From: Pseudobdellovibrionaceae bacterium
GTDB lineage: Bacteria; Bdellovibrionota; Bdellovibrionia; Bdellovibrionales; Bdellovibrionaceae
NCBI GenBank assembly: GCA_947370945.1
Contig: CANBND010000003.1
Location: 1-33,980 of the forward strand
Length of the DNA: 33,980 nt
Reading direction: 5' to 3'
Positions within the stretch are counted from its first letter, which is position 1. Every line of letters begins with the position of its first letter. Positions 96 to 6,188 of the stretch are shown in pieces. The notes beneath the pieces were generated by a model. That model saw only the letters and a list, made by a program, of their open reading frames with translations. It was not told the origin of the DNA and made no database searches. The translations under genes and the position numbers were made by a program.

Positions 96-1532
96 ATGAC
101 TAAAACACTATGTCTCATTTTGATATTATTCACTCAGGCTGTATTTGCGAATAAAAAAACTGTTTGCTCAATGACAATCAATTCAAATCACGAAATTGAA
201 TTGTTTAAAAAACATTTGCCAGCAACCGATTGGAATTTTATCGAACTGGTACCTGGCCCAGCTGAAACTGAAAATCAAAATTGGTTTGCAGAATCGTGTC
301 AGAAAAAAATTGAATGTGATATTTTAGTGATTTCGGGCCATTTTGGTGGAGCATTCTTTGGCGCCAGCAAGTACAAATTGCCGATTCAAGATCTTGAAAC
401 AAAATCATGTGATGAAAATTGTTCTGGCATCTTACATCAACCCAAAGAAGTTTTTTTGTTCGGATGTAATACTTTGGCCACCAAACAAAAGGACCACAGG
501 TCACCCGAAGAATATTTGCAAATTTTAATTGCCGATGGGTTTTCAGCCACACAAGCCAGCCAAATTGTCAGCTTCAGATACAGTGGCTTTGGCGATTCAT
601 TTCAAAGCCGAATGTCGCAGGTATTTGCGAAAACTCCGAATGTGTATGGGTTTTCTTCGGTCGGTCCAGCGGGAAACACCGTCGAGCCACTATTAAATAA
701 TTATCTGCTTTCAAGTCAAAATGAATATAAAAATTTTGAGCTTACGAAATCAAATCCACAAAAAAATACGAAATTATTTTCAAGCCTGAAAGAAACCAGC
801 TTGACTCAGACAAAAGGTGCCATCCTGAATTTAAAAACAGCCGAAGAAAAGCCATATTGTTATTTAAAAAGTTCACGTGTGAATCATTTATCTAAATTAC
901 GTTATATCGAAAAGTTATTTAAAGAAAATAAAGCGATGGGATTGCTGGACCACATTCAGACTTATTTGCACCCCGTTATTGCTGATTTAAAATCTTTGTC
1001 TGCAGAAGAATTGGCGGTTTTAAAATCGCTGTCGACAAATTTAAAAATCAAATCCGATTTGTTGAATTTAATGCAATTACAAGGCGATGTTTACATTCCA
1101 TTAAAAGCCAACGTTATACAAACGCTGAATGATTTACAATTTATTAATGACGATTATGCAACGTCATCGTTTCAAAAATTACTGGACCTAAATAAAGTTT
1201 TTTCAGATCAGAAAAAAGATATGCTCTGTTCATCACAGCTGACTTTGAATTTGCCGGCAAAAGCTGTACCCGCAGCACGTTGGAACGAAATGAATTTTTT
1301 AGTTTCGTTGATGTGTTTAAAACCCAAAGACATCACGATTCAAAATAAATTTGCAGAAATTATGCTAACGCATTCAGATCCTGTTATGCGTGGCACGGCG
1401 GTTTGGTTTTTTAATAGTATTCAAGCCCACGATGAATTGATTTTACAAAAAATTTCAGATGTTTTTAAAAATGACGTGGACGAAAATGTCAGATCAAGTG
1501 CTCGTTTAGTTTTAAAGGCCTTAAAAAAATAA
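96..1532 (+). CDS. Exported protein with caspase/CHAT-like His-Cys signature and helical C-terminal repeats
   Basis: The 478-aa product starts with a signal peptide (basic MTK, hydrophobic core to about residue 16, cleavage near VFA-N), so it should leave the cytoplasm. Residues 75-130 carry DILVISGHFGG (His82) and, 42 residues later, VFLFGCNTLA (Cys124). Each follows a hydrophobic beta-strand, which is the arrangement and approximate spacing of the catalytic His and Cys in clan CD peptidases (caspases, CHAT domains). The motif is H-F-G-G rather than the usual H-G. The C-terminal half (about 270-478) is helical; its last segment (LTHSDPVMRGTAVWFFNS, DVDENVRSSARLVLKAL) resembles HEAT repeats. 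The ATG at 96 is chosen because it begins the signal peptide; no strong Shine-Dalgarno is visible. The gene converges on the flagellin gene. Protease activity is inference; it could be an inactive or structural relative. Confidence 0.85.
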   Translation: MTKTLCLILILFTQAVFANKKTVCSMTINSNHEIELFKKHLPATDWNFIELVPGPAETENQNWFAESCQKKIECDILVISGHFGGAFFGASKYKLPIQDLETKSCDENCSGILHQPKEVFLFGCNTLATKQKDHRSPEEYLQILIADGFSATQASQIVSFRYSGFGDSFQSRMSQVFAKTPNVYGFSSVGPAGNTVEPLLNNYLLSSQNEYKNFELTKSNPQKNTKLFSSLKETSLTQTKGAILNLKTAEEKPYCYLKSSRVNHLSKLRYIEKLFKENKAMGLLDHIQTYLHPVIADLKSLSAEELAVLKSLSTNLKIKSDLLNLMQLQGDVYIPLKANVIQTLNDLQFINDDYATSSFQKLLDLNKVFSDQKKDMLCSSQLTLNLPAKAVPAARWNEMNFLVSLMCLKPKDITIQNKFAEIMLTHSDPVMRGTAVWFFNSIQAHDELILQKISDVFKNDVDENVRSSARLVLKALKK

Positions 1533-2600: not shown

Positions 2601-3440
2601 TTAACCCTGCCTCATTAACTGCATGGCTAATTGACCCTGCTGATTTGACTGAGCTAGAACCGCAGTTCCCGCTTGCATCAAAATATTTTGCTTGGCCATA
2701 TTTGTACTTTCTTCAGCGACGTCTGCATCACGAATTCTTGAATTTGCCATCGCGTTGTTTTCAACACTTTGCTGTAAATTTTCAACTGTCGAACTTAAGC
2801 GTGATTGAACTGAACCAAAATTTGATCGCAATGCAGCCACATGTTGAATCGCTGAATCAACCATCGCTAAAGATTCTTGCGCTGAAAATTTATCATTCAC
2901 ATTCGCTTGATCTAAACCCAACGTTTGCGTTCTGATATCTGACGCTGTTCCATCAAAAGAAATTCTGTCCGCCAGCGGAGAATTTTTTGTATTAATTTGA
3001 AAATCAATATTATCTGCTGTGCCTGATAATAAATTTGTTCCGTTAAATTCTGTTGTTGCTGCGATACGATCCACTTCACTTAATAATTGTGAATATTCAA
3101 CGCCAACCAATTTTCTTTCACGATCACTAATCGTATCTGATGCCGATTGAATTCCTAATTCACGTAAACGAATTAAAATATTAGATACCTCATTCAAACC
3201 GCCTTCTGCGATTTGAATTAATGAAATGCCATCTTGTGCATTTCTGTCAGATTGTTTCAAACCACGAAGTCGTGCTTTGAGTCCTTCAGAAATAGCCAAA
3301 CCAGCAGCGTCATCTGACGACTTGTTGATTTTACTTCCTGAAGATAATCTGTTCATTGCCATGTCTAACTTTCCTTTATTTCCTGAAAGTGTATTCAATG
3401 TATTCATCGAAGCCACATTCGCGTTAATTCTTAAGCCCAT
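2601..3440 (-). CDS. fliC: Flagellin, upstream paralogue
   Basis: A 279-aa flagellin with the same architecture as its downstream neighbour: N-terminal MGLRINANVASMNTLNTLSG and SGSKINKSSDDAAGLAISEG, C-terminal NSRIRDADVAEESTNMAKQN ending AMQLMRQG. The central region is short. The frame stays open 45 codons further upstream, but the ATG at 3440 is the real start: it begins the canonical MGLRI N-terminus and is preceded by GGAGG at normal spacing, while the extension has no flagellin similarity and no ribosome site. A sigma-28 promoter at 3577-3603 implies a leader of about 130 nt. The two paralogues are clearly divergent, so they may play different roles along the filament; that is inference. 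Confidence 0.97.
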   Translation of the reverse strand: MGLRINANVASMNTLNTLSGNKGKLDMAMNRLSSGSKINKSSDDAAGLAISEGLKARLRGLKQSDRNAQDGISLIQIAEGGLNEVSNILIRLRELGIQSASDTISDRERKLVGVEYSQLLSEVDRIAATTEFNGTNLLSGTADNIDFQINTKNSPLADRISFDGTASDIRTQTLGLDQANVNDKFSAQESLAMVDSAIQHVAALRSNFGSVQSRLSSTVENLQQSVENNAMANSRIRDADVAEESTNMAKQNILMQAGTAVLAQSNQQGQLAMQLMRQG

Positions 3441-3530
3441 TTGTTTCCTCCTTGAAACTTTGAGAATCCGATTTTTATTTTGTGTCTCGCTTTTAAACGT
3501 CTCACTCGTAAAATTCTTTTTCTCACTCTG

Positions 3531-3541
3531 AGAATCCATCC
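3531..3541 (-). repeat. Flagellin-leader 11-mer, copy 2
   Basis: GGATGGATTCT on the minus strand, 91 nt upstream of the ATG at 3440; identical to 2516-2526. The shorter core GGATTCTCA recurs in the same leader at 3461-3469. Confidence 0.4.
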
Positions 3542-3576
3542 ATGAATTCCCAAAAAACGTAAAACTCTTGTACACT

Positions 3577-4975: not shown

Positions 4976-5659
4976 TTAACTTGCCTTCAAATTCAAATAT
5001 TTAAAATCTTGAATAACATCCCAAGCTGTCGCAAAAGATCCATAAGTTTTTTGTGCTAACTCGGTCGCTGTTAAAGTTGGATTCAAACTCAGTTGCGCCA
5101 CCATGTCTGCCCGATATGACGGACCAATAAGCAATCGATAATAATACGTTGTGTGATATTTTGACAATTGTTGGACTGACAAAATATCATCTTTACGATC
5201 TCGCAATGTGTGCTTTGCTACGACCAATTTACTTTTTTCAAATCGCAAATCTTCACCATGTTTTTTAACTAAAAAACTATACTCACTGGTCAATCCTAAT
5301 AAAATACGATCACCTTTATGCAAAGATTTAAATTTATTAAATCTTGAATCCGTCTTTAATAAATAGGCCAAGGCCGAAAAATAGCACTTTACTTTTATAT
5401 CTTTTAAAATTTTGGTGGCTCGATATAAACGATCTACATTTATTCTTTCAGCGTGAATTTCAATCCAGTTTGTAATTAATGACAGTGTTCGATAGTCACC
5501 GGATAAGCCCTCAATAACTCCGGCAATAAGCGCATCTTCGATATTCACATTTTCTTTTGTGTTTCGATCTCCAATTTTTATACCAACAGCAATCATTGAT
5601 CTGGTTAATAACAGTCCAGTCTGATAAGCATCCGTCGCAATAATTCTTTTAAAACTCAT
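4976..5659 (-). CDS. Unrecognised partner of the nucleotidyltransferase-fold protein; possible winged helix at C-terminus
   Basis: A 227-aa soluble protein that I do not recognise. It is mostly helical, with no signal peptide or membrane segment. The C-terminal 40 residues (ADMVAQLSLNPTLTATELAQ, then YGSFATAWDVIQDFKYL) look like a helix-turn-helix or winged-helix DNA-binding unit. Its ATG lies inside the end of the upstream nucleotidyltransferase-fold gene (11-nt overlap), so the two are almost certainly translationally coupled and likely to work together. The arrangement recalls toxin-antitoxin pairs such as AbiEi/AbiEii, where one partner is a wHTH antitoxin that represses the operon. There the antitoxin gene usually comes first; here the order is reversed. 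Function is inferred from context only. Confidence 0.75.
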   Translation of the reverse strand: MSFKRIIATDAYQTGLLLTRSMIAVGIKIGDRNTKENVNIEDALIAGVIEGLSGDYRTLSLITNWIEIHAERINVDRLYRATKILKDIKVKCYFSALAYLLKTDSRFNKFKSLHKGDRILLGLTSEYSFLVKKHGEDLRFEKSKLVVAKHTLRDRKDDILSVQQLSKYHTTYYYRLLIGPSYRADMVAQLSLNPTLTATELAQKTYGSFATAWDVIQDFKYLNLKAS

Positions 5660-6188
5660 AGCCTAATTTTTTCGTTAAAATCTGAACTTGCGAATCTACA
5701 TAATTTGGCCAATCAGGATTCGCATCATAGTTTTTAACCCAATCAATAATTTCTAAAAGTTCAGATTTTGTAATTTTTAAATCAATGCAGTCTTGTAAAT
5801 CAAAACCACGGTCACAATAGGCCAGAACCTTTGTGCCAATCAGATCAATTCGACCAAGTGTTTGAAAATGAATGGCCTCTCCAATATAAAGTGGCTCAAG
5901 ACGTTTTTTCCAATCTGTACGTAAATATTTCCGAAGTGATTCAGGGCCATGATTTAACCAATTTTCTTTAAGCGATGTTTGCTCTAGATTGAATTGCACC
6001 GCAAATTCTTTCGAGGCTTTTAAAATATATTCTGGAACAAGCGGATCTAAAACATCAACATCTTGGGTTTGCCTTGTAATAACACCTAATATTGAAAGTG
6101 CAGCGCCGCCAATAACAACCGCAGAAAAGCTAAGTTTTTTATTTTTTAAATAGAGATCAAAATTTTCAACGATCAGTTTTGGCTTCAT
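5649..6188 (-). CDS. Nucleotidyltransferase-fold protein (DUF6036/AbiEii-like)
   Basis: A 179-aa protein with a minimal nucleotidyltransferase core: VVIGGAALSILG, then TRQTQDVDVLDP (residues about 24-50). The GG motif followed by an acidic D-x-D about 15 residues later is the hallmark of the Pol-beta-type superfamily. A later RIDLIGTKVLAYCDRGFDLQDCIDL segment (about 113-137) matches the region bearing the conserved Lys/Asp in DUF6036-like proteins. Such proteins transfer nucleotides to tRNA or protein in known toxin systems, but many are uncharacterised. The ATG at 6188 has an AAGG Shine-Dalgarno seven bases upstream. It is the first gene of a two-gene operon, overlapping the next by 11 nt, and its promoter lies in a long palindrome. 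Fold call is good; toxin role is inference. Confidence 0.8.
   Translation of the reverse strand: MKPKLIVENFDLYLKNKKLSFSAVVIGGAALSILGVITRQTQDVDVLDPLVPEYILKASKEFAVQFNLEQTSLKENWLNHGPESLRKYLRTDWKKRLEPLYIGEAIHFQTLGRIDLIGTKVLAYCDRGFDLQDCIDLKITKSELLEIIDWVKNYDANPDWPNYVDSQVQILTKKLGYEF

Follow-up and report, generated by a model that had tools for sequence, protein, structure and literature searches.

A predicted exported protein with a caspase-fold domain and a HEAT-like tail in a Pseudobdellovibrionaceae bacterium

Does a gene at the edge of a contig from a Pseudobdellovibrionaceae bacterium encode an exported caspase-type peptidase, and if so, to which family does it belong and what might it do? The gene lies in a stretch of 33,980 nucleotides (the window), i.e., one entire contig of a 2.59-Mb genome that is 99% complete, and it starts 95 bases from the left contig end. 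The open reading frame has an ATG start and represents the whole gene. Its 478-residue product consists of a signal peptide (residues 1–18), a domain some 225 residues long and a C-terminal helical part (Table 1). The original prediction had described an exported, caspase- or CHAT-like His-Cys domain fused to a helical repeat region and had called a periplasmic or secreted caspase-like enzyme notable, above all in a suspected predator.

Table 1. Features of the gene for the predicted exported caspase-fold protein in the window.
Feature	Position	Strand	Basis
Whole gene, predicted exported caspase-fold protein, 478 aa	96..1532	+	ORF call; 61 further homologues aligned
Predicted signal peptide, residues 1–18 (MTKTLCLILILFTQAVFA), predicted cleavage before Asn19	96..149	+	sequence; crude signal-peptide test
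Predicted caspase-fold domain, residues 19 to about 242, six main β strands	150..821	+	AF2 pLDDT 93.0, pTM 0.91; 50/50 listed PDB matches caspases
Cys24, proposed disulfide with Cys74 (315-317)	165..167	+	both near-invariant; jointly lost in one divergent row, L057
Cys68, proposed disulfide with Cys109 (420-422)	297..299	+	paired loss
His82, proposed catalytic base, just after β3 (residues 76–80)	339..341	+	62/62; 95/96
Cys105, proposed disulfide with Cys255 (858-860)	408..410	+	five rows without Cys105 also without aligned residue at Cys255
Cys124, proposed nucleophile, just after β4 (residues 118–122)	465..467	+	62/62; 96/96
Predicted C-terminal helical (HEAT/ARM-like) solenoid, residues 253–478	852..1529	+	AF2 helices, high pLDDT; armadillo/HEAT designs among PDB matches; HEAT_2 in 17/81

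We analyzed the predicted fold with AF2. Residues 19–478 were modeled from 81 sequences with a pLDDT of 93.9 and a pTM of 0.88, and the domain alone from 96 sequences with the values given in Table 1. The modeled strands cover residues 21–27, 46–50, 76–80, 118–122, 182–186 and 236–239, with a short strand at 86–88, and follow the order β1-α-β2-α-β3(His)-short strand-α-β4(Cys)-α-β5-β6. Peptidases of clan CD carry their catalytic dyad at the ends of β3 and β4 and have a small β section after β3 (PMC4357240). Judged from the AF2 secondary structure and the residue positions along the sequence, the same arrangement is found here.

In a Foldseek search with the isolated domain, caspases made up all 50 of the PDB matches listed, with probabilities of up to 1.00; the structural similarity to clan CD seen in this way comes with moderate scores (best E 1.0e-3, TM about 0.26–0.47, large rmsd). 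With the full-length model, entries for Raptor or mTORC1 took the first seven places among the listed matches (E 2.9e-3 to 1.5e-2); below them stood armadillo/HEAT designs, caspases and further proteins with helical repeats. As these scores are modest, it is the agreement among the matches, taken together with the confident model and the position of the dyad, that carries the fold assignment. The caspase-haemoglobinase core, for which the original prediction had proposed structure prediction and a fold search, is present in the predicted fold, and the model supports a clan CD-like N-terminal domain.

The dyad itself was found as originally described, i.e., His82 in ISGHFGG and Cys124 in FLFGCNTLA, 42 residues apart, and each residue directly follows a hydrophobic strand (DSSP strands 76–80 and 118–122, respectively). 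A conservation check of the dyad had been set beforehand, and neither residue varies freely among homologues. Both are invariant in the alignment of 62 homologues, and in a second domain set of 96 sequences, which overlaps the first in part, His82 is kept in 95 and Cys124 in all. The domain profile gave 174 matches, 149 of them distinct: 169 had His and Cys, one had Glu and Cys, and four were incomplete; Cys124 is hence present in every complete copy and His82 in all complete copies but one. In the homologue at L096:5728-8250, Glu replaces the catalytic His while the Cys is kept, and this may possibly be an inactive form. The dyad persists in homologues down to about 20–27% identity. As the other domain histidines of the window protein (32, 40, 114 and 134) vary in the same 96-sequence alignment, conservation of the dyad is far beyond chance. 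Little or no variation is seen at Ser80, Gly123, Thr126, Glu33 and Glu50 either. Gly81 directly precedes His82 in 94 of 96 sequences and the residue after His82 is Phe, Tyr or His, i.e., the usual His-Gly form is absent; published accounts place the Gly beside the clan CD catalytic His differently (PMC4357240, PMC12445089).

Export of the protein, part of the original prediction, was borne out at the level of sequence. The N-terminal segment MTKTLCLILILFTQAVFA has the appearance of a Sec signal, including a cleavage site of the A-x-A type. Moreover, a crude signal-peptide test, in which a hydrophobic stretch after a basic residue was sought just upstream of the domain, was positive in 148 of 171 homologues compared with 8 of 165 control positions, and many of the misses lacked nothing but the basic residue or fell just short of the hydrophobicity threshold. 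The protein would be exported through Sec, to the periplasm or beyond. In the homologues L072 and L016, a Cys follows the signal stretch (L072, which has L015 as a twin, carries LFGC near its start); some homologues thus appear to be lipoproteins, and part of the family may be anchored in a membrane.

Besides Cys124, six more cysteines are conserved in the 62-homologue alignment (Cys24, Cys68, Cys74, Cys105, Cys109 and Cys255). They probably form three disulfides, as would be expected for a location outside the cytoplasm. The pattern of loss points most clearly to a Cys68–Cys109 pair: of the 12 distinct rows without Cys68, 9 have also lost Cys109, which all other rows retain. The Fisher p of this joint loss is 3.6e-12, calculated on non-independent sequences, and the tree offers three independent contrasts, which run in the same direction or are neutral, with none opposite, and are too few for significance. 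The putative pairs Cys24–Cys74 and Cys105–Cys255 are less securely assigned, the latter being the weakest of the three.

The C-terminal 226 residues are all-helical in the AF2 model from about residue 253. The window protein itself matches a HEAT profile weakly (PF13646, E 0.11), and 17 of the 81 homologues scanned carry Pfam HEAT_2 at E≤0.01 (best 6.5e-42), L008 clearly so (4.1e-18). With the helical model and these homologues, the proposed HEAT-like C-terminus holds. Tail length differs widely among homologues. In the same Pfam scan, a HATPase_c domain was apparent in one of the 81 homologues and was absent on examining L122.

We then compared the domain with known families. It has no model in Pfam, NCBIfam, PHROGs or PADLOC, and a role as a defence system was rejected for lack of a PADLOC match; a sequence-profile search against PDB sequences also returned nothing. 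Membership in C14 (PF00656) was rejected, as there was no Pfam match and an hhalign comparison with 12 same-phylum C14 proteins, run without a positive control, gave a probability of 1.9%. The alteration of the usual clan CD His-Gly to S-G-H-[FHY] likewise speaks for a separate family that is a member of neither CHAT nor C14. The best reading is a new exported clan CD-like family, set apart from C14 by profile and from CHAT by family match.

Homologues were found in 50 of 148 related genomes searched. A profile search of the phylum detected the family in 97 of 369 genomes and in 72 of 235 good-quality ones, i.e., in roughly one in four of the Bdellovibrionota sampled. A plasmid search yielded no family member. 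In a scan limited to a single genome for each species, 126 relatives were obtained; the 80 retained come mostly from Bdellovibrionota and Betaproteobacteria, with a few bins labeled otherwise. Betaproteobacterial carriers include Ramlibacter, Piscinibacter, Aquabacterium and Rubrivivax, and in a quick tree the 44 rows with the label Betaproteobacteria cluster together on a single long branch, fully supported by SH-aLRT. By six-frame search we located an adjacent second copy at 28 loci, nearly all Betaproteobacterial (including L112, L113, L117, L120 and L132); three whole genomes have exactly two adjacent copies each. Both copies of these Betaproteobacterial pairs keep His and Cys. The tandem pair is old, because most first and second copies group separately across genera on the tree.

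The genome studied here has a second family member (L002, C13:14311-14925) with 41% identity over the domain in an ORF of about 524 residues, with both dyad residues and without Cys105. It also holds a separate C14 (caspase/metacaspase) match (L154, C80:7684-8304, E 2.1e-9) within a 433-residue frame with the motif NYSGHGG. Genome G045, probably that of B. bacteriovorus HD100, has one family copy at about position 3,116,275, flanked by genes of the universal-stress and 2-hydroxyacid-dehydrogenase types (neighbor names read from sequence).

Neighbors of the window gene on its own contig are ordinary, i.e., two flagellins, a thiolase, GARS, an M23 peptidase, PP2C, leucyl-tRNA synthetase and arginine decarboxylase. 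The flagellin genes lie side by side (1623-2459 and 2601-3575, −) and adjoin the caspase-fold gene on the opposite strand. Further along, a DUF6036 nucleotidyltransferase-type gene (5649-6188, −) overlaps a 227-residue ORF without a Pfam match (4976-5659), and the two are possibly a two-gene unit. No shared neighborhood was found around homologue loci, except among close relatives and in the Betaproteobacterial tandem pairs. As the neighbors are not conserved, the caspase-fold gene appears to act alone.

What would such a protein do? We consider it likely that it is an exported cysteine endopeptidase with a disulfide-locked caspase-haemoglobinase domain and a HEAT-like solenoid that sets target and timing. 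Sec would carry it into the periplasm or farther out, where probably three disulfides would lock the N-terminal domain. His82 at the end of β3 would activate Cys124 at the end of β4, and the solenoid may bind a substrate or regulator and thereby control the choice and timing of cleavage. That the dyad is invariant in two phyla and in both paralogues favors an enzyme, and our analysis suggests that the family member is probably an active peptidase. As a guess, taken from the invariant Glu33 on helix α1 and from Ser80, a basic residue might be preferred before the cut (P1). The proposed pocket of TbMCA2 is built from residues on helix α1, loop L3 and loop L4, and Ser80 lies two residues before His82, where TbMCA2 has Ser156 of this pocket. 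The acidic L4 residue Asp211 of TbMCA2, however, finds no acidic counterpart just before Cys124, which speaks against a full match.

A markedly less likely explanation, although one with a real chance, is a Raptor-like recruiter, i.e., a caspase-fold non-protease in which the His82/Cys124 pocket would recognize a peptide motif while a partner protein sits on the HEAT solenoid. In its favor, Raptor leads the full-length fold matches and has the same order of parts, and the His-Gly signature is altered in the family. Human Raptor moreover retains both residues, yet failed to show caspase activity with a DEVD substrate (PMC5205667); conservation alone hence does not prove proteolysis. That assay, however, covered one caspase substrate only, and the near-perfect conservation of the dyad in very divergent homologues, in at least two phyla and in both tandem paralogues, exceeds what folding or peptide binding would need.

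We regard as improbable that the same dyad makes the protein an active hydrolase or transpeptidase whose envelope target is something other than protein, such as peptidoglycan cross-links or isopeptide bonds. Predicted export would fit this, and sortases and L,D-transpeptidases are envelope enzymes with a His-Cys dyad that act on such bonds; predators, too, remodel prey walls. The clan CD families described are peptidases, however (PMC4357240, PMC12445089). The predicted fold, moreover, is caspase-like and not that of a sortase or L,D-transpeptidase. A CHAT-family protease carrying a signal peptide is very improbable, as the His-Cys order and a GCNT motif that loosely resembles the CHAT Cys motif are opposed by the lack of a Pfam CHAT (PF12770) match, by a search of 114 Bdellovibrionota genomes that found no CHAT and by best listed fold matches to caspases (domain) and Raptor (whole protein), so that the 'CHAT-like' part of the original prediction is unsupported.

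For an exported cysteine endopeptidase, the most likely physiological role would be to process envelope or extracellular proteins in a regulated way, rather than to serve as a weapon for predation alone. We rejected a predation-specific role as the main reading, and the originally suggested tie to a predatory life is weak, as many Bdellovibrionota genomes lack the gene and Betaproteobacteria not known as predators keep it; the tandem pairs of the latter show that the family is not predator-specific.

With this locus the caspase-fold proteins gain a family that is well defined and so far has no name. In a search of open-licence papers, performed without a locus tag, we found no description of the family or of a bacterial architecture of signal peptide, disulfide-locked caspase domain and HEAT solenoid. 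The probable homologue in the model predator B. bacteriovorus HD100 makes deletion and activity tests feasible.

How does the family relate to known systems? CHAT proteases have a caspase-related His-Cys domain, often beside helical repeats; the window family differs in lacking a family match, and CHAT is absent among the 50 listed domain fold matches. Like clostripain (C11) and gingipain (C25), the window protein would be an exported His-Cys peptidase of caspase fold, but neither it nor its homologues have a Pfam match to either family, and no HEAT tail is known in C11 or C25. Clostripain is a secreted clan CD enzyme (PMC12445089), and possible signal peptides were reported for prokaryotic metacaspases (PMC3501461), so that export alone is not new.

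With caspases and metacaspases (MEROPS C14) the family shares the predicted fold and the order of His and Cys at the ends of β3 and β4, and with the same-phylum C14 proteins (FSGHG) also the S-G-H at the catalytic His. In contrast to C14, it has no sequence-profile link, carries Phe, Tyr or His after the His, where C14 has Gly, and shows Gly-Cys-Asn-Thr in place of Asp-x-Cys-x-Ser-Gly. A signal peptide, probable disulfides and a HEAT-like tail further distinguish the window family.

Raptor, a subunit of mTORC1, resembles the protein in that a HEAT solenoid comes after an N-terminal caspase-like domain and in its conserved His and Cys (H153 and C196, 43 apart; PMC5205667). Unlike the predicted exported bacterial protein, Raptor is eukaryotic and cytosolic and ends in WD40 repeats, for which the window protein has no Pfam match, and identity in the fold alignments is 8–12%. 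That both share the module by descent, Raptor's inactive part stemming from such a bacterial peptidase of which predators would have kept the active secreted form, seems to us a very long shot. The Raptor-like order of parts nonetheless provides a bacterial comparison for the question of enzyme or recruiter.
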